34,548 nt of DNA from a bacterium (GTDB lineage: Bacteria > Pseudomonadota > Gammaproteobacteria > Nevskiales > OUC007), in assembly GCA_018222345.1 (NCBI GenBank), contig JAAFAL010000017.1, positions 1-34,548 of the forward strand, read 5' to 3'. The notes under the pieces were generated by a model. That model was not told the DNA's origin. It did not search any database and saw nothing but the letters and a program-made list of their open reading frames with translations. The position numbers and the translations under genes were made by a program. Position 1 is the first letter of the stretch; every line of letters starts with the position of its first letter. Positions 2,309-27,262 of this stretch are shown piece by piece.

Positions 2309-4015
2309 CTAGTGTTCCAAGGCGCGATAACGCTCGCGCAAACGGTTGCGAATCCGCACCGCCGCCAGGTTAAGCAAAACGATTACCAGCACCAGCAACA
2401 ACGCTGTTGCATAGACCAGTGGCCGAGCGGCTTCGACGTTGGGGCTTTGGAAGCCGACGTCGTAAATATGAAAACCCAGATGCATGAACTTGCGGTCCAG
2501 GTGCAAAAACGGGAAGTTGCCGTCCATGGGCAACGACGGCGCCAGTTTGACTACGCCCACCAGCATCAGCGGCGCCACCTCGCCAGCGGCGCGGGCAATG
2601 GCCAGAATCAAGCCGGTCATCATTGCCGGGCTAGACATGGGCAACACCACCTTCCACAGCGTTTCGGCCTTGGTGGCGCCCAATGCCAAGCTGGCCTCGC
2701 GAATGCTGCGCGGAATCCGCGCCAAACCCTCTTCGGTGGCTACAATCACCACAGGCAAGGTGAGGATGGCCAGCGTCAGCGATGCCCAGAAGATACCGCC
2801 GGTGCCAAATGTGGGCGCCGGCAAGCTCTCGGCGTAAAACAATTGGTCGATGCTGCCGCCAATGGCATAAACGAAAAAACCGAGCCCGAACACGCCATAG
2901 ACGATTGACGGCACGCCGGCCAGGTTGTTCACCGCGATGCGAATCGTGCGGGTGATGACACCCTGCTTGGCGTACTCACGCATGTACAGCGCGGCGACCA
3001 CGCCAAACGGCGTGACCAGCACCGACATCAGCAGCACCATCAACACGGTGCCAAAGATTGCCGGGAAGATGCCACCTTCGGTGTTGGCCTCACGCGGCTC
3101 TTCGGAGACGAACTCCCAGATCTTGGCGAAGTAGAAGCCGATTTTTTCACCCAGCCCCATGGCATTGGGCTGGTAACCGCGCACGACCTCTTCCAGCGGC
3201 ACAGTCACCGTCTCGCCGGTCTGTACGCGCACGGTGATGCTGTCGCGTTCGATCCGCTCCTGCAGTTCGTTCAGTTCAGCTTGCAACTCGGCGTAGCGGG
3301 CATCCAATTCAGTGCGTTTTTCGGCCATTTCGGCCTTGCGCGCCGCAGTGAATGCGTCGTTGAGCTCATAGCGGCGTTGCTGCAGCCGCAGTTGCTCCAG
3401 CGCGTAATTGACCTTGCCGATCTCACCATCCTGGATGTGCTCGATCTGCGCATACAAGTCGCGCGCGCGGTCGTGGCGCTGCTCAAACGCGGCCCACGCA
3501 CTGTCACCACTGGCAACGCGATTGCCGGCCTCGCTGACCGACACCAAGGTGCCGAACAGGTCGCCCCACTCCAGCCGTTCGAACACGGAAATATCCGCCG
3601 GGAAGCTGCGCTCGACGATCCACTGGTCGAGTAGATAACGGAAATCCGAGCCGTAAACATCGCGGTTGGCAACCTTGACCAAACGGCGGTCATAAAATGG
3701 CTGATCGGTATCGACCGGGATGCCTGCCGACTCCAGCCGCGCCGCCGATACGGTTTCGGTGGCGCCAAGTTGGGCGATCAACGGCCGCGCGGGCTGGCCC
3801 GGCTCGGCGTACTGCGCCACGGTAACCGGCGCGGGCCAAAAATGGCCCAGGCCGCGCACTGCGATGAGCAGCAGCAAACCGACGACAAGAATGGCGCTGA
3901 TGGCCACGGCGCCACCTGTGAACCACACCCACGGTGCGCCGCTGGCGTACCACTCGCCAAAGCTGCCGGCGCCGCGGCGGTTGATGTCAACAGCGGTTGT
4001 GTCGGGATGGTTCAT
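2309..4015 (-). CDS. pstA: Phosphate ABC transporter permease PstA, long form
   Basis: 568-residue inner-membrane permease subunit of the high-affinity phosphate importer. E. coli PstA is about 296 residues, but long forms occur in Pseudomonas and relatives. Order of parts: one N-terminal membrane helix (about 33-53), a periplasmic insertion (about 55-315), then the conserved multi-helix permease core (about 317-560). The insertion includes a charged helical coiled-coil stretch (about 172-260, rich in Glu, Arg, Gln and Leu). The core contains the EAA-type coupling loop REASLALGATKAETLWKVVLP-like segment ahead of the last helices. The ATG at 4015 overlaps the pstC stop by four bases (ATGA). 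What the coiled-coil insertion does is not known to me. Confidence 0.97.
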   Translation of the reverse strand: MNHPDTTAVDINRRGAGSFGEWYASGAPWVWFTGGAVAISAILVVGLLLLIAVRGLGHFWPAPVTVAQYAEPGQPARPLIAQLGATETVSAARLESAGIPVDTDQPFYDRRLVKVANRDVYGSDFRYLLDQWIVERSFPADISVFERLEWGDLFGTLVSVSEAGNRVASGDSAWAAFEQRHDRARDLYAQIEHIQDGEIGKVNYALEQLRLQQRRYELNDAFTAARKAEMAEKRTELDARYAELQAELNELQERIERDSITVRVQTGETVTVPLEEVVRGYQPNAMGLGEKIGFYFAKIWEFVSEEPREANTEGGIFPAIFGTVLMVLLMSVLVTPFGVVAALYMREYAKQGVITRTIRIAVNNLAGVPSIVYGVFGLGFFVYAIGGSIDQLFYAESLPAPTFGTGGIFWASLTLAILTLPVVIVATEEGLARIPRSIREASLALGATKAETLWKVVLPMSSPAMMTGLILAIARAAGEVAPLMLVGVVKLAPSLPMDGNFPFLHLDRKFMHLGFHIYDVGFQSPNVEAARPLVYATALLLVLVIVLLNLAAVRIRNRLRERYRALEH

Positions 4016-6306
4016 AGGTCGCTGTACTTACGGCGCAGGCGTTGGCGGACAACCTCGGCCACGGTGTTGAACACAAAGGTGAACATGAACAGCACCAGCC
4101 CGGCGAGGAACAGAATGCGGAAGTGGGTGCTGCCGACCTCGGATTCGGGCATCTCGACCGCGATATTGGCCGACAGCGTGCGCATGCCCTGGAAGATGCT
4201 CATGTCCATGATCGGCGTGTTGCCAGTGGCCATCAGCACAATCATGGTCTCGCCGACGGCGCGGCCCATGCCGATCATGACCGCCGAGAACATGCCCGGG
4301 CTGGCAGTCGGCAACACCACGCGCACCAGTGTTTGCCACGGCGTCGCACCTAGCGCGAGCGAGCCCTGCGACAACTGCTTGGGTACCGAGAAGATCGCGT
4401 CTTCGGCAATCGAGAAAATCGTTGGAATCACCGCAAAACCCATGGCGATGCCAACCACCAGCGAGTTGCGCTGGTCGTAATCGATGCCCAGTTCATTGGT
4501 CAGCCAGTTGGGCATGCTGCCGCCGAACAACGCGGCTTCAACCGGGTTCGACAAGCTGAACGCCAACACAGCCACCGCGATAACGACCGGGATCAACAAC
4601 ACCGGTGCCCAGCCATCAGGCACCAGGTAACGCATATTCGGCGGCAGGCGCGTCCATAAAAAGCCCGCGAGCGGAATCGCCGGCGGCAGCAGCAGCAACA
4701 GCAAAAATGCGCCGGGCATATTCAGTTCGAGATACGGCGCCAGGAACAAGCCGGCCAAGAAGCCCAGGATCACGGTGGGCAGCGCTTCCATGATCTCGAT
4801 GGTGGGCTTGATCAGTTGCCGCAACTGCGGCGACATGAAATACGCCGTGTAGATCGCGCCGAAAATCGCCAGCGGCAGGGCAAAAAGCATGGCGTAAAAC
4901 GCCGCCTTCATGGTGCCGAAACTCAGCGGTGTGAGGCTGAACTTGGGTTCAAAATCATTGGTGGCGGATGAGGATTGCCAGACATAGTCCGGCTCGGGAT
5001 AGCTCTCGTACCAAACCTTGCCCCACAGCGCGCCCATGCTGATCTCGGGGTGCTCGTTGTGGATGTCATAGCGGTGTAGCTGTCCGTCGGCGGTTTCCAC
5101 CAGCATGGTGTCGGCGCGTGGCGCCAGTGCCACGCTGCGAACGGCCACGTCGCCAACATCAAAATTGGCCAGCCGGCGCTTGGATGTGGCGTAGTACAAC
5201 GCCACTTTGCCGCTGTCGGTGCCCACCACGAAACCGCGACGGCGCTGCTCGATGTCAACATCGGTCACGGTACCCGCAGGCAATTTGAAGTCGCGGACAC
5301 GCTGCAGGCGGTAACTGTTGTCGTCATTGCGCACCGGGAACCACTGCGAAATGAGCCCGCGCTCACCACTGCCCGGCTCGGCCAACATCAACGAGATGCC
5401 GCCGTTGAGGAAAGTCGCCTGACGCAGGCTCTCACCCTCGGCCACGGTGATCAGATCAATACGCTGCGGATTGTCCAGGTCGCGAATCGACCAGAATGCC
5501 AGCCGGCCATCGGCTGACAAGGCGTACAGCCACGCCTGCTGCGGATCGATGCGAATGGTAGTTGGCGCGAACTCCAGGTTGAGTGTTGTTTGCGCATCGG
5601 CTTCCAGCTCGCCGGCACCACCGAACAGTCCGACCTCCTGCACAAAGCGGGCGATGCGCACCTGATTGCCGGGCAGTACGCCGGCCAGCAACACCGACTC
5701 CTCGGCGGTACGCACCTCCAGCGCATCGACGGGCCCATCGGCGAGGGCTAAGGAACCTTCGCCATAGGGATAAGCGATGCCAGGAATGATCGTACGCACA
5801 CCGTCGGTGAACTCCGAGCGGTAGCTGTGCTCGGCAATGCGCACACTGCCATCGGCCAACGCAATGGCGAAGCGGCCGGAGGCACGGTCGATAATGTCGA
5901 AAGCAACTGCGGGCGGTTCGCCGTCAGCGATGACCGGCACGGTCTCACGCAAGGCGCCTGTGGCAACGTCAAAGAAGTGTGCCTGCCCGTCGCTACCCAG
6001 CCGAACGCCAATCTCAGCTTGCTCCTCCATCGCCAGCAACCACGGTTGCTGCGCGGCCATTGCAGGCTGCAGCGCGTAGCTGCCGTGGCTGGTGACCTTG
6101 GCCGGCGCAAACAGCGGCAGCACCACATAGGCCAGATAAAAGAAGATCAGCATGATGGCGACAATGACGCCAAGGCCGCCGACTGCCACGCCCCAGCGAG
6201 CGAACCGGTCTTTGAGGTAACGCCAGCGCGTGCGCGCGTCCATAACGCCGAGCAGCGCATGCCGGTCAGACGCGTTGGAGGGCTTGGTCGAGGACACTGC
6301 AGTCAT
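4012..6306 (-). CDS. pstC: Phosphate ABC transporter permease PstC, long form
   Basis: 764-residue inner-membrane permease subunit, partner of PstA. It is more than twice the length of E. coli PstC (319 aa), matching the long PstC of Pseudomonas-type systems. An N-terminal membrane helix (about 39-66) is followed by a periplasmic region of nearly 400 residues. That region has repeated beta-rich blades (for example FDIIDRASGRFAIALADGSV and PQQAWLYALSADGRLAFWSI) resembling a WD/propeller fold. The permease core follows (about 465-760), with SLALGATPWQTLVRVVLPTA as coupling loop. The start at 6306 has no Shine-Dalgarno but lies 6 bp after a -10 hexamer of a PHO-box promoter, so it may be leaderless. 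An internal ATG at 6243 also lacks a ribosome site. Confidence 0.96.
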   Translation of the reverse strand: MTAVSSTKPSNASDRHALLGVMDARTRWRYLKDRFARWGVAVGGLGVIVAIMLIFFYLAYVVLPLFAPAKVTSHGSYALQPAMAAQQPWLLAMEEQAEIGVRLGSDGQAHFFDVATGALRETVPVIADGEPPAVAFDIIDRASGRFAIALADGSVRIAEHSYRSEFTDGVRTIIPGIAYPYGEGSLALADGPVDALEVRTAEESVLLAGVLPGNQVRIARFVQEVGLFGGAGELEADAQTTLNLEFAPTTIRIDPQQAWLYALSADGRLAFWSIRDLDNPQRIDLITVAEGESLRQATFLNGGISLMLAEPGSGERGLISQWFPVRNDDNSYRLQRVRDFKLPAGTVTDVDIEQRRRGFVVGTDSGKVALYYATSKRRLANFDVGDVAVRSVALAPRADTMLVETADGQLHRYDIHNEHPEISMGALWGKVWYESYPEPDYVWQSSSATNDFEPKFSLTPLSFGTMKAAFYAMLFALPLAIFGAIYTAYFMSPQLRQLIKPTIEIMEALPTVILGFLAGLFLAPYLELNMPGAFLLLLLLPPAIPLAGFLWTRLPPNMRYLVPDGWAPVLLIPVVIAVAVLAFSLSNPVEAALFGGSMPNWLTNELGIDYDQRNSLVVGIAMGFAVIPTIFSIAEDAIFSVPKQLSQGSLALGATPWQTLVRVVLPTASPGMFSAVMIGMGRAVGETMIVLMATGNTPIMDMSIFQGMRTLSANIAVEMPESEVGSTHFRILFLAGLVLFMFTFVFNTVAEVVRQRLRRKYSDL

Positions 6307-6312
6307 CGGGCA

Positions 6313-6346
6313 AGTCTAGTGGCGGTTTGTGACATCACGATGATAA
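6313..6346 (-). promoter_or_regulatory. PHO-box promoter of pstC
   Basis: On the minus strand, positions 6346-6329 read TTATCATCGTGATGTCAC: half-sites TATCA and TGTCA whose starts are 11 bp apart, as in the PhoB box. Ten bases later comes TAGACT (6318-6313), a 4-of-6 match to TATAAT. This box/10-bp/-10 geometry matches the promoters of pstS and phoB in this window. The first half-site is imperfect, so it is the weakest of the three. The -10 ends 6 bp before the pstC ATG. Confidence 0.6.
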
Positions 6347-14817: not shown

Positions 14818-16260
14818 TCAGGCCGGCGCAGGCACCAAGGCTTCGCCGGGGCCGGCAATCAGCCCGGCGTCTGCAAGCGCTGACTCGATGCAGTCTTTGA
14901 CGACACGCTCGCGCCGCACCGATAAATGCGAGCCAACAAACCAGCGCGGCTCGCAATCCCAATGCCGGGCCAAGGCTTGGGCCTGCGGCGGTGGCAGCAG
15001 TTGGTCGGCGCTGCCGGCAAACACATGGCGGTGCGGCTTCGGCACTTGGCAGCCGGCGGCCAACGGCGATATAGGCTGCAGCAGCCGGCGGATCAGCGTT
15101 TCGTTGACGCCCAGCGCTTCAATGCCGCGTTGTGGAATATCGGGGAAGTTGCGCCATAAGGCGTCTGCCACATCGACCAAGGGGATGCCGGCGATGACCA
15201 CATCAAATGCGTCGCAATGTGCGGCCAGCAGCGAGGCGTTGTAGCCGCCCAGGCTGTAGCCCAGCAAGCCAATCTGCTCGGCGCCCTGCTCGGCTTGCAA
15301 CCAGGCGGCTGCGCTGCGCAGGTCATGCAGCGCCTGGGTTTGTGCATGAACGAGGTTGAGAAAATCGCCGTCCAGGTAGTTGTCGCCGCTACGCCGGCCG
15401 GCTCGGCGCGGCCCATGCAGTGGCAACACCGGCATGAACACATTGAAGCCCAAACGCTGGTGCAACCAGGCCGGTGGGAACAGCGACATGTCCAGCCAAG
15501 GTATGCCCATGCGGTAGCCATGAATCGCGACCAGCCACGGGCGCGGCGTATCGTCGGCGTGACGCAGCATCCAACCATGCATGGTTTGGGTGTTGGCAAA
15601 GCCGGCGTAGCGCTCGGCGCCTGGCAGTTCGGCGTGCGGCTGAAAGCCACTGCGCCAAGTCACATGGGCATAGTCGATATCGCCACGCTTTGCAGCTTGG
15701 ATCGCGACATCCTTAGGCAGCGCCGGCTTGGCGTGATAAGTCGCCGGTTTATCAGCCCAGCCCCGCGTCTGAATCACTTCGGCAGCGGCGTGAACCTCGT
15801 TGGCCACGCGCTCGGCGCGCGCCCCAGTGGGGATTTTCGCGCTGCTGGTGAAGTAGCCAATCAAAGCGTTGTCGAGCATGGCCTTGAATGCCACGCTACG
15901 TGTCACCGGTGGCGGTTCGACGCCTTCGAAATCTGCTTGCTCGGCCAAGGCCAGATAACCCGACACCAATGCCGCCAGCGCAGACGCCGCAAACACCACC
16001 AAGCCGGCGAACAGACCAGCAAACAGCATGTAGGGCAAGGCCAGCAGGCAGCCCAAAACACCCGCCAGCGCCATGAATTGATTGAGCCGAGGATCACCGG
16101 CGTAGAGCAAACTGCCAACGCCGGTCGAGGCCAATACCAAGCCGGGCAGCGCCGCAAGCAAAGCTGCGCCCAGCCCCGCACCACTGGCCGTAAATGCCCA
16201 CAGGCCACCCGCCAACAAGGCCACCAGCCCCAGAGGTTGATACTGCGGGTACTGGGTCAC
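14818..16260 (-). CDS. Membrane-anchored alpha/beta hydrolase
   Basis: 480 residues if the GTG at 16260 is the start; this GTG overlaps the stop of the upstream gene (GTGA), and the longer in-frame extension has no membrane or enzyme character. The N-terminal 105 residues are strongly hydrophobic (three or four helices, about 8-105). A linker follows, then an alpha/beta hydrolase domain (about 225-470). The catalytic set is visible: nucleophile Ser336 in GYSLGG, acid Asp419 in FAGSADQLLPP, and His445 in FVGSHLSV. An oxyanion-type AIHGYRMG lies near 246. The substrate is not recognisable; prolyl-peptidase-like, esterase or lipase roles are all possible. It is the last gene of a three-gene operon whose two upstream members are of unknown function. 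Confidence 0.85.
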   Translation of the reverse strand: MTQYPQYQPLGLVALLAGGLWAFTASGAGLGAALLAALPGLVLASTGVGSLLYAGDPRLNQFMALAGVLGCLLALPYMLFAGLFAGLVVFAASALAALVSGYLALAEQADFEGVEPPPVTRSVAFKAMLDNALIGYFTSSAKIPTGARAERVANEVHAAAEVIQTRGWADKPATYHAKPALPKDVAIQAAKRGDIDYAHVTWRSGFQPHAELPGAERYAGFANTQTMHGWMLRHADDTPRPWLVAIHGYRMGIPWLDMSLFPPAWLHQRLGFNVFMPVLPLHGPRRAGRRSGDNYLDGDFLNLVHAQTQALHDLRSAAAWLQAEQGAEQIGLLGYSLGGYNASLLAAHCDAFDVVIAGIPLVDVADALWRNFPDIPQRGIEALGVNETLIRRLLQPISPLAAGCQVPKPHRHVFAGSADQLLPPPQAQALARHWDCEPRWFVGSHLSVRRERVVKDCIESALADAGLIAGPGEALVPAPA

Positions 16261-16559
16261 GGCAGGTAGAACAGCACGATGCCGGCAATGCTTCCCAGGC
16301 CAATGGCCTGCCCGATGCCGGTCAACAGGCCGAACTGACCACTCAGCAAGGCGCGGCGCAGGGTCCACGTGGCCACGGCCATGGCACTGGCCACACCCAT
16401 GAATAGCAACGCGCTGACAATCAAGAACGGGAACTCGGCGCGTAATTTTGGCATTTCGCCGAGATAAACCGCGTAGATCAGGCACACCACACCCAGCACT
16501 AACGCCATCACCGAGGCCAGCGCCAACAAGGCGCAATTGAGGATGAACAATTGCCGCAT
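16257..16559 (-). CDS. Small membrane protein, unknown function
   Basis: 100-residue protein that is nearly all hydrophobic. Three membrane helices are visible (about 5-30, 43-65 and 75-98), with short charged loops (GEMPKLRAEF and TLRRALLSGQ). Its ATG shares one base with the stop of the upstream gene (TGATG) and its stop overlaps the GTG start of the hydrolase gene, so all three are translationally coupled. It may pair with the membrane segment of the hydrolase. I do not recognise a family. Confidence 0.75.
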   Translation of the reverse strand: MRQLFILNCALLALASVMALVLGVVCLIYAVYLGEMPKLRAEFPFLIVSALLFMGVASAMAVATWTLRRALLSGQFGLLTGIGQAIGLGSIAGIVLFYLP

Positions 16560-16846
16560 CAGCTTTGATCTTTACTTGGCTTGGGTTTGCGGCGCCGGCG
16601 CGCGGCCTGTGCGGCGCTAGCGGCGATTTTGGGTTGCAACATGGCGACCTTCACCAGCGACCTGCTCAGGTAACCCATGATGCGGTCGCGGTATTGAAAC
16701 AGACTACCCACCAGCTTCATCTCGCGGTCATCCATGAACACGACCTGCTCATCGGCATCATCGCCGTAACGCACTGAAAACGACAAGCGCAGATCGAGCT
16801 TGTCGGGATTGCGTTGGTTTTTTGTCCGGGGCGGCTTGCTTGGCAT
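16559..16846 (-). CDS. Small basic protein, unknown function, leaderless start
   Basis: 95-residue soluble protein. The start at 16846 (MPSKPPRTK) is chosen over an upstream in-frame ATG that lies inside the divergent gene. It sits 6 bp from a TATAAT hexamer, with no Shine-Dalgarno. The N-terminus is Lys/Arg/Pro-rich, the centre has a compact region (LDLRLSFSVRYGDDADEQVVFMD), and the C-terminus is a long basic tail (ARRRRKPKPSK). It could bind nucleic acid or an acidic partner, but no family is recognised. It is first gene of the operon with the small membrane protein and the hydrolase. Confidence 0.75.
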   Translation of the reverse strand: MPSKPPRTKNQRNPDKLDLRLSFSVRYGDDADEQVVFMDDREMKLVGSLFQYRDRIMGYLSRSLVKVAMLQPKIAASAAQAARRRRKPKPSKDQS

Positions 16847-16852
16847 CGGTCG

Positions 16853-16860
16853 ATTATAGT
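16853..16860. promoter_or_regulatory. Shared bidirectional -10 element for two leaderless genes
   Basis: The octamer ATTATAGT gives TATAGT on the plus strand (16855-16860) and TATAAT on the minus strand (16858-16853). Exactly 6 bp separate each hexamer from an ATG: CACCCG before 16867 on plus, CGACCG before 16846 on minus. Only 20 bp separate the two start codons, leaving no room for Shine-Dalgarno leaders. Each -35 would lie within the other gene; I see no strong -35 for either. Confidence 0.7.
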
Positions 16861-16866
16861 CACCCG

Positions 16867-17373
16867 ATGAGCACAAACAGCAAGCTGGTGGTTTTTGCAC
16901 ACGGCATGGAAAGTGGGCCGTGGGGGACCAAGATCAAGGCGCTGGCCAAAGTTGCCGAGGGCGCCGGGTGGGCCGTGGATAGCCGCGACTACCGCGCCAC
17001 CAAAGACCCCGATGAGCGCGTGCGCATGCTGCTAGCCGACCCGCCGCGCGCTGATCGGCTCGTGTTGGTGGGCTCGAGCATGGGCGGCTACGTATCGGCC
17101 ATGGCCTGCGAGCAACTTGAGCCAGACGGCCTGATGTTGATCGCACCGGCGCTGTACTTCCAAAAGTACGATGCCGAGCCGACTGGTATCCCCAAGGCTT
17201 GCGCCGTCGTCCACGGCTGGCACGACGACATCGTGCCGCCAGATCGTGCATTGCGATTCGCTGATACGCACAAAGCCGAACTGCATATGCTCGATGGCGA
17301 TCATCGCCTGGTCGAACAAATCGGTGAGTTGGAATGGATACTGACCCGGCTGTTGGCGCGAGTCGCGGCTTAG
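16867..17373 (+). CDS. Small alpha/beta hydrolase (esterase-like)
   Basis: 168-residue cytoplasmic protein with a compact alpha/beta hydrolase fold. Visible elements are the oxyanion strand VVFAHGMESGPWG, nucleophile Ser71 in GSSMGGY, acid Asp in HGWHDDIVP (about 120-121) and His in LDGDHRLVE (about 146). It resembles the short YqiA/YpfH/RBBP9-like hydrolases lacking a lid; the substrate cannot be inferred. The start at 16867 (MSTNSK) is chosen because an upstream in-frame ATG would extend into the divergent gene without added homology, and because TATAGT lies 6 bp before it. The message is therefore probably leaderless. It converges on the membrane-protein gene with one base between stops. 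Confidence 0.85.
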   Translation: MSTNSKLVVFAHGMESGPWGTKIKALAKVAEGAGWAVDSRDYRATKDPDERVRMLLADPPRADRLVLVGSSMGGYVSAMACEQLEPDGLMLIAPALYFQKYDAEPTGIPKACAVVHGWHDDIVPPDRALRFADTHKAELHMLDGDHRLVEQIGELEWILTRLLARVAA

Positions 17374-24695: not shown

Positions 24696-25868
24696 TCATC
24701 CGGCGGGAGCAAATGCCTGCCAGGTTGTGCTGATTTCGCCTCCATCAAACACCGCAATACCTCCTAGCTGCCCCAGCACCGCCTCGCTCTGCGTAGGCCG
24801 CAAGAACACGAAATCGTCCGGGTTCAGGCCAGGATCAACGCCGGTGACGAGCACTTCCTGATTGGACGAGCGCCCAAAGCTGCGGTCATAACGCAAACCC
24901 GGTGGATCGACCGGCGTGGCTTTCCAGTACCCGCCGTGTATGCAAATGGCATTGCGCCGGCCCAGCAAGCGCCGCGCGCCGTCCAGGACCTCTAGCACCG
25001 GTGTTTTTACAGGCCGCAACACCTTGAGCGCTGGCGTGGCGATGTAGGCAGCCGGTTTATAGTCAACGAGCAAATCGGTGTCGAAATCGGTGGGTTTGAC
25101 GAGCACCGACCCGAGTGCCAGTTCGTTGGCCACTGTGGTGTCCCGATACAGCCGGAAGGTCGGGCTGCCACCGGCGTTGCAGATCAGCGCATTGGCTGTC
25201 GCATGGCCAAGTTCAGCCGCCACTTGCCCGATTGCGATGCGGTATTGGGCCAACGCGCGATCAAACATGCGCTGCCGCCACCCAAGCAGCGTTGGCACCT
25301 TGGCCACGTGAGCCTCGTAGCCGAGCAGCGCGGTCACCCTCAAGTTGTCACATTGCGCGATTTGCCGCAGGGCGCCGGCAAGCGCGTCACCCGGCACAAA
25401 CCCGCCGCGGTGCAGGCCTACATCCAACTCCAAGGCAACATTCAGCGTCACGCCCTGCTCGCGTGCCAAGTCAACGTACTCCGCCAAGCGTTGCGCCGTA
25501 TCGACGAGCCAATGCACTTGCCCTGCGCGCTGCGGATGGTTGGCAACAAACTGGCGCGCTGCTGCAACCGGCAACGGCTTGCCCAGCAGTTGGTCGGCAT
25601 CGGGAATCGCTTGGGCGATTTTCGTCAACATTGATGCGTTGAAGGTCATCAGGCGCTTCGTGTCCAGGCAATCGCAACACAACTTCAGTAACGCTGGGCT
25701 GGGTAGGGACTTGGCCACGACGCGCAGTGCCATGCCTGGCGGCAGCACGTCAGAGATGTGCTTCAGATTAGACATCAGTTGAGGCAAGTCGACAACGACG
25801 ACCGGCTGCACGTAGCCGGCTCGGTGCAGCGCGCCGCGCATGGCCGCAAAGCGCTCTGATGATCTCAT
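24696..25868 (-). CDS. Alanine-racemase-fold PLP enzyme (D-amino-acid deaminase/aldolase-like)
   Basis: 390 residues. The N-terminal half is an alanine-racemase-type TIM barrel. PLP Lys53 lies in LRVVAKSLPSPAL, followed by FNASMLTKIAQA, HWLVDTAQRLAEYV, ALELDVGLHRGGF and the phosphate-binding NAGGSPTFRLY region. The C-terminal part has a beta domain with ICIHGGYWKATP and PTQSEAVLGQLGG, as in the D-threonine aldolase/DSD1 group, where the His and a Cys or Asp bind a metal. Here the C-terminal motif deviates from the usual H-x-C pair, so activity class is uncertain. Its ATG overlaps the stop of the flavin oxidase gene (ATGA), so the two are made together and may act on one substrate. Confidence 0.85.
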   Translation of the reverse strand: MRSSERFAAMRGALHRAGYVQPVVVVDLPQLMSNLKHISDVLPPGMALRVVAKSLPSPALLKLCCDCLDTKRLMTFNASMLTKIAQAIPDADQLLGKPLPVAAARQFVANHPQRAGQVHWLVDTAQRLAEYVDLAREQGVTLNVALELDVGLHRGGFVPGDALAGALRQIAQCDNLRVTALLGYEAHVAKVPTLLGWRQRMFDRALAQYRIAIGQVAAELGHATANALICNAGGSPTFRLYRDTTVANELALGSVLVKPTDFDTDLLVDYKPAAYIATPALKVLRPVKTPVLEVLDGARRLLGRRNAICIHGGYWKATPVDPPGLRYDRSFGRSSNQEVLVTGVDPGLNPDDFVFLRPTQSEAVLGQLGGIAVFDGGEISTTWQAFAPAG

Positions 25869-27184
25869 GCGCCGGCCGCTTCGCCGAACAACTTGGCAAG
25901 ATGCGGGTTGAGCAAGCGTCCGTCCGGGTCGAGCGAGCGCCGCAACTCCTCAAACCGTGCAAAGTTAGGATAAAGCTCGCGTAGCTGGCTGCGGCCAAGG
26001 CTGTGCAACTTGCCCCAGTGCGGGCGGCCGCCATAGCGTAAAAAGATGGGCTCAAGTTGATCAAAAAACCACTGATAATCATCGTTGTGATGCACGTGCA
26101 CCGCAATGCTGATGCGCGCGCCGCCCTGAAACGGGCTCAACCACGCCGTGTCGGCGGCGGTCATGCGGCACTCGATCGGGAAGAACAAGCGCGGCTGCTC
26201 TCGATCCAGCATGCTGCGAATCTCATCCAGCGCCGTCAGCCCGACCGCTTCCGGCAGGTGATACTCCATTTCGTGAAAGCGCATGCGCCGGTCGCTGGCC
26301 AACAGCTTCCAGCTTGTGCCCACTTGCTGTGCAGGCCGCTCGCTACGCAGCACGCGGTTCAGAATCCATCGCCGCACACTGGGCGCCCAGGCCAGCGTAT
26401 TGCGCAGCCACAGCAGCTTTTGCAAACCGGCATGGTCATCGCCAAGGTTTTCGGCAATATCAGGCGCATCGGTCTCATCGGTCTCATCGTGCGTCAGTGT
26501 CAACGCGTAATCGCTGCCGGGGATGACAAAAAATTCGAAGTTGCGATGCTGCCGCCACAAGCTTGGCGCCTGCTCCAACACCTCGCGGTAGGGGCGAACC
26601 TGCGCCCGGCGATGCAACTTGAACGCCTCGCGCACGTGCACATCGGCGCTGAGCACAATGCCCAGCGTGCCCAGCGACACCTGCGCCGCCGCCAGCTCGT
26701 CTGGCGATGACACGGCATCAACACTGCGAATGTCACCATCCGCGGTCATGATCGAACACGCGCGCAATTCTCCCGACAAACATGGAAACTCACGCCCAGT
26801 GCCGTGAGTAGCTGTCGCCGTGGCACCCGCAAGTGATTGCACATCAATGTCGCCGAGGTTGCGAAATGCCAAGCCCTGCGCTTGCAGCGCGGCCGACAAG
26901 GCATTGAGCGAGGCCCCAGCCGGTAAGCGTGCTCGCAACTCGCCGTCGTCCGGCGCCAGCACTTGCACCATCGGGATCGCCATCTCGTCCAAACAAATCA
27001 TCGTGCCGTCAGTGGCATTCAACGGCGTAAATGAATGCCCCGCCCCGCGCACGCGAACACCGCCGCGAGCACCCTGAATGGCTGCCCGCAGTTCATCTAG
27101 GTCACGCGGAAATAACTGCTGCCCAGGTTGCGCCTTGACGCAGCCAGACCAATTGCTCCACTGCGATGCACCAGCATCGCGCAT
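25865..27184 (-). CDS. FAD-linked oxidase, gulonolactone/arabinonolactone oxidase family
   Basis: 439 residues. The N-terminal FAD-binding PCMH domain (about 20-190) includes VRVRGAGHSFTPLN; His50 is at the position that covalently binds FAD in alditol and gulonolactone oxidases. SLAGATATATHGTG is a second FAD contact. The C-terminal ALO domain (about 200-435) shows the family's YHLPE, FPIECRMTAAD, RPHWGKLHSL and DPDGRLLNPHL. It should oxidise a sugar lactone or polyol with O2. The ATG at 27184 shares one base with a seven-codon upstream reading frame; a TTG immediately before it is the only earlier start. It is coupled to the PLP enzyme. The substrate is unknown. Confidence 0.9.
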   Translation of the reverse strand: MRDAGASQWSNWSGCVKAQPGQQLFPRDLDELRAAIQGARGGVRVRGAGHSFTPLNATDGTMICLDEMAIPMVQVLAPDDGELRARLPAGASLNALSAALQAQGLAFRNLGDIDVQSLAGATATATHGTGREFPCLSGELRACSIMTADGDIRSVDAVSSPDELAAAQVSLGTLGIVLSADVHVREAFKLHRRAQVRPYREVLEQAPSLWRQHRNFEFFVIPGSDYALTLTHDETDETDAPDIAENLGDDHAGLQKLLWLRNTLAWAPSVRRWILNRVLRSERPAQQVGTSWKLLASDRRMRFHEMEYHLPEAVGLTALDEIRSMLDREQPRLFFPIECRMTAADTAWLSPFQGGARISIAVHVHHNDDYQWFFDQLEPIFLRYGGRPHWGKLHSLGRSQLRELYPNFARFEELRRSLDPDGRLLNPHLAKLFGEAAGA

Positions 27185-27262
27185 CAAACAAACTTACCGG
27201 CACTCATCCTAGGGAATATGCCACAGCAGCTTGTGTGTGGCCCGTCAGGGCGGCTCTCTCAG

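Follow-up and report, generated by a model that had tools for sequence, protein, structure and literature searches.

Overlapping -10-like hexamers and two predicted leaderless starts in a 20-bp divergent gap of a Nevskiales genome

Genes and start codons at the divergent locus

The window, by which we mean the whole stretch of 34,548 nucleotides that was analysed (contig JAAFAL010000017.1 of assembly GCA_018222345.1), comes from a gammaproteobacterium of the order Nevskiales, the nearest named relatives of which are Abyssibacter (Oceanococcaceae) and members of the Nevskia/Solimonas group. The plus-strand gene studied here (16867..17373), predicted to be leaderless, encodes an alpha/beta hydrolase of 168 aa (PF05728 UPF0227, PF12146 and PF12697). 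It was matched in 58 of the 61 related genomes searched, part of these matches being weak, and in most relatives the orthologue starts within a few codons of the position of the window ATG. On the opposite strand lies an operon headed by a basic protein of 95 aa (16559..16846, minus strand), also predicted to be leaderless, for which no Pfam or NCBIfam match was found and the relatives of which make up a clear family. It is followed by a strongly hydrophobic, membrane-like ORF of 100 aa (16257..16559, minus strand) and by a second alpha/beta hydrolase (PF00326) of approximately 480 aa (14818..16260, minus strand), the probable start codon of which is GTG. Stop and start codons overlap at 16561-16557 (TGATG) and again at 16260-16257 (GTGA), and given these tight overlaps the locus consists of a single plus-strand gene opposite a tightly coupled three-gene operon. 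The first two operon genes, both small and without a Pfam match, are conserved next to the hydrolase in relatives. As N-terminal homology of this hydrolase was found in another frame, a frameshift was considered and rejected, since relatives share the two-gene layout and the window has the GTGA overlap. The ORFs on both strands are genuine conserved genes. An earlier note on this DNA described the locus as a hydrolase facing a hydrolase-containing operon; both are indeed present, with the qualification that the minus-strand gene at the promoter encodes the 95-aa protein and that the hydrolase is third in the operon.

On the plus strand, positions 16844-16869 read CAT CGGTCG ATTATAGT CACCCG ATG. 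The octamer ATTATAGT (16853..16860), examined in the sequence itself and by a genome-wide pattern search, contains, when both strands are read, two overlapping -10 hexamers that have TATA (16855-16858) in common. For the plus-strand gene the hexamer is TATAGT (16855..16860, five of six consensus positions), followed by 6 bp and the ATG at 16867-16869; for the minus-strand gene it is TATAAT (16858-16853, six of six), followed likewise by 6 bp and the ATG at 16846-16844. The divergent ATGs (16846 on the minus strand and 16867 on the plus strand) are 20 bp apart, and no Shine-Dalgarno-like 4-mer occurs 4-12 nt upstream of the ATG on either the plus or the minus side. The octamer, hexamers, paired 6-bp spacers and 20-bp gap had all been placed correctly in the earlier note, and the upstream 4-mer check confirmed the lack of a Shine-Dalgarno sequence that it had claimed for both sides.

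TATAGT and TATAAT carry -11A and -7T on their respective strands, as expected of opposed overlapping -10 elements, and both starts show the sequence signature of a leaderless gene, namely TANNNT approximately 6 bp upstream and no Shine-Dalgarno sequence. The -18 position is G on both strands, -18T thus being absent from both sides. Neither side has a good -35 element, the best plus-strand candidate matching at only two of six positions and the sole minus-strand candidate, TTGCTG, lying at a poor spacing of 19 bp, and basal activity may therefore be low. A consensus scan of the region detected no sigma70 promoter.

Predicted leaderless starts in this genome and among its relatives

The frequency of leaderless-type starts was assessed in 715 kb of stretches sampled from this genome, in which 508 gene starts were assigned, approximately, with a simple home-made codon-based gene finder. 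With one start taken per gene, TANNNT hexamers with at least three of six matches to TATAAT peaked exactly 6 bp before the start, with 16 cases against approximately 3 at each other spacing. When any nearby in-frame start was allowed, spacings of 6 and 7 bp gave 20 and 10 cases, respectively, where the spacings from 10 to 44 bp averaged 5.5, and hexamers with at least five of six matches were seen seven times at 6 bp against 0.83 expected. Judged from this peak, approximately 3% of the genes of this genome look leaderless, in line with the range reported for a minority of gammaproteobacterial genomes, i.e. 3.0-5.7% (mean 4.5%) in 15 of 239, mainly from basal orders (PMC3160421). The genome's signature makes leaderless starts at 16867 and 16846 plausible, and, for each gene taken alone, the 6-bp enrichment indicates that a -10-like hexamer of such quality is more likely to be real than a product of chance. 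Both ATGs therefore do stand at the position expected for leaderless genes, as had been proposed, and on these sequence grounds we consider a leaderless start likely for the plus-strand gene and, with less assurance, fairly probable for the minus-strand gene. Two further leaderless candidates were noticed in the window, TAGACT-N6-ATG (6304-6318) at the apparent start of the minus-strand gene 4012-6306 and TAAGTT-N6-ATG (27182-27196) at the apparent start of the minus-strand gene 25865-27184.

The divergent gene pair is kept in 49 of 108 non-redundant loci, and for 43 of the 49, the window included, it was possible to place both starts. The octamer is absent from all of the other 42. Three loci of the same family (L004, L006 and L008) have the aligned minus-strand ATG exactly 20 bp from the plus-strand ATG, and in their spacers, CCCAGCCCAAACTTCGAGCC, CAGCCCAAAAGATTCGAGCC or CAGCGCAAAAGATTCGAGCC, neither hexamer is present; the true minus-strand start is uncertain in these three because a second in-frame ATG exists there. 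A conserved symmetric element was accordingly rejected, and the idea of a maintained symmetric device is not supported, the octamer being missing even where the 20-bp gap is found. The earlier note had called for such an alignment and had named retention of the genes with loss of the octamer as the outcome that would speak against it, and this is what the relatives show.

Relatives differ from the window in the arrangement of the two starts. The minus-strand gene is usually preceded by an SD-like motif, and outside the window a leaderless-type minus-strand gene was seen in a single weak case (L023, TAAACT at 7 bp). In four relatives (L012, L013, L056 and L062) TATCAT stands 6 bp before an in-frame plus-strand ATG, and these loci are predicted to be leaderless on the plus strand only. 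Where the minus-strand gene begins, CTTTGG(C)TATCAT or CTTTGCGTATCAT recurs strongly among relatives (L005, L007, L009, L014, L017, L018, L021, L027, L039, L057 and others). The plus-strand TATCAT of many relatives is the reverse complement of the ATGATA with which the minus-strand gene begins and, since GC-rich genomes seldom use ATA for isoleucine, TATCAT is best read as the -10 of the plus-strand gene lying on the minus-strand start codon. The start codon of the minus-strand gene may thus be embedded in the opposing promoter in these relatives, in which case the minus-strand promoter must lie further upstream there. The plus-strand promoter probably stayed near the minus-strand start codon while sequence and spacing turned over.

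These relatives, with their SD-like motif and a minus-strand promoter displaced by TATCAT, and the four that appear leaderless on the plus strand alone, lend some weight to a reading in which only the plus-strand gene of the window is leaderless. The minus-strand operon would then be transcribed with a normal leader from a promoter inside the plus-strand coding region, and TATAAT would be a chance mirror that costs a single base. We regard this as possible, if unlikely, as it has to set aside both a perfect TATAAT at exactly the leaderless spacing that is enriched in this genome and the lack of a Shine-Dalgarno sequence before the minus-strand gene of the window. That neither hexamer is used, the octamer being an AT-rich patch that arose by chance between two closely spaced genes, each with its promoter elsewhere, is improbable: the lack of a -35 element on either side and the lack of conservation of the octamer fit such a patch, but TATAAT-like hexamers at 6 bp are enriched several-fold, and with 0.83 expected against seven seen, the chance share among hexamers with at least five of six matches is approximately 12%.

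Probable origin of the symmetry and proposed mechanism

The general form of the 12-base geometry, CATN6ANTATANTN6ATG, is its own reverse complement. It occurs at two places in the genome of 3,001,342 bases, against none for the reversed control, and the second site is flanked by a gene on one side only, a small ORF judged HemP-like by eye. Recurrence within the order was rejected, the pattern being found in three of 85 genomes and flanked by genes on both sides only at the window site. Across 370 gammaproteobacterial genomes a hand count gave 81 sites, and a control with a left spacer of 10 bp gave 136 sites over its two orientations, i.e. 68 per orientation (also counted by hand), so that the mirror pattern shows no significant excess. 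The proposal that the mirror geometry is a special device is therefore not borne out, since within the class sites of the double geometry do not significantly outnumber those of the shifted control.

Among 34 mirror sites checked for ORFs, the convincing two-gene cases were the window and L227, and the mirror form thus recurs, but rarely. L227 is from a gammaproteobacterium unrelated to the window genome, and its site (CATCTGCATAGTATACTGCACTGATG, 1501-1526) lies between genes for a type II secretion F protein (plus strand) and an FKBP-type isomerase (minus strand), with TATACT-N6-ATG on both strands. At another site (L199, 1501-1526) a HigB-like ORF (by eye) has TATAGT-N6-ATG and may represent the toxin half of a toxin-antitoxin pair, expressed as a leaderless gene.

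Little of the symmetry needs an explanation of its own. Given an ancestral 20-bp gap and a TATANT 6 bp from one ATG, the hexamer necessarily sits in the middle and leaves 6 bp on the mirror side as well, and a mirror TANNNT then requires one extra base (P approximately 0.2). The 20-bp spacing of the ATGs is probably older than the octamer; a TATANT would have arisen 6 bp before one ATG, and one further base would have produced the mirror -10. The mirror symmetry is thus most likely a by-product, and we view it as mostly incidental, a lineage-specific arrangement. It is very improbable that the near-palindromic 26 bp (CATCGG-N14-CCGATG, complementary at 10 of 13 positions) is mainly the operator of a dimeric regulator overlapping the promoter. 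The complementarity of four of six spacer positions (P approximately 0.04) speaks for such an operator, but the statistics are marginal, CAT/ATG and TATA force half of the symmetry, the arms are absent from the same-family relatives, and the adjoining genes include none that could be recognised as a regulator.

The overlapping divergent promoter is real as a sequence arrangement and probably functional, and we incline, with a modest degree of confidence, to the reading that both genes are leaderless and use the shared -10 core. The 20-bp gap would comprise two overlapping sigma70-type -10 elements with a common TATA, to which RNA polymerase would bind in either orientation, melting the same AT-rich core. 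Transcription would begin at or beside the A of either ATG and give two leaderless, or nearly leaderless, mRNAs; we infer that transcription starts there, that both messages are translated without a leader and that the two orientations exclude each other. A bolder suggestion, which we think doubtful, is that the site represents a minimal switch, in which a single -10 core would, without any further regulatory sequence, give rise to two leaderless transcripts that exclude each other. On this view the form also arises independently at other gene pairs, for example that of L227.

Should both starts be confirmed, this promoter would approach the lower size limit for a divergent promoter, with 20 bp between start codons, and would offer a clean natural model in which to ask how one -10 core is shared out between directions where neither a leader nor a Shine-Dalgarno sequence can compensate. 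As it stands, the locus illustrates that the symmetry of TATAAT together with tight gene packing can yield such sites with no special selection.

Relation to bidirectional promoters and leaderless genes

Bidirectional promoters, defined as pairs of transcription start sites 7-25 bp apart, are a known and widespread class (PMC10268837; PMC12825309), and their two orientations sterically exclude each other (PMC12825309). The earlier note expected the two genes of the window to be expressed in competition, and the case for this is weak: the E. coli bidirectional promoters that have been tested show low basal activity, loss of one direction being of no substantial help to the other (PMC12825309), and no recognisable -35 element is present here. 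Given this low basal activity, competition is possible but would not be expected to matter in the absence of activation.

Start-site separations of 18, 10 and 23 bp are preferred (PMC12825309), and the preferred configuration has a separation of 18 bp, reciprocally paired -7 and -11 positions and -18T (PMC10268837), a preference and not a requirement (PMC12825309). The window site does not have this configuration, and its predicted separation of 21 bp is none of the three preferred values. As far as the bidirectional promoters of Warman et al. 2021 are described in the papers that cite them (PMC12825309; PMC10268837), the window resembles them in its opposed sigma70-type -10 elements with shared bases and in a start-site pair, predicted from sequence, of 21 bp, which falls within the 7-25 bp definition. 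On the same accounts it differs from the preferred 18-bp promoters in that its overlap is the 4-bp TATA with a predicted separation of 21 bp and -18T is lacking, and further in that both products are predicted to be leaderless. Our literature search, which had most subscription journals outside its reach, found no paper devoted to leaderless starts combined with bidirectional promoters. Leaderless starts and shared -10 elements are each known already, and the window site is ordinary in kind, within a known class. With leaderless genes that have TANNNT just before the start codon (PMC3160421; Deinococcus-Thermus, PMC12340547) it has in common a -10 at leaderless spacing and no Shine-Dalgarno sequence; unlike them, its two starts share one -10 core.
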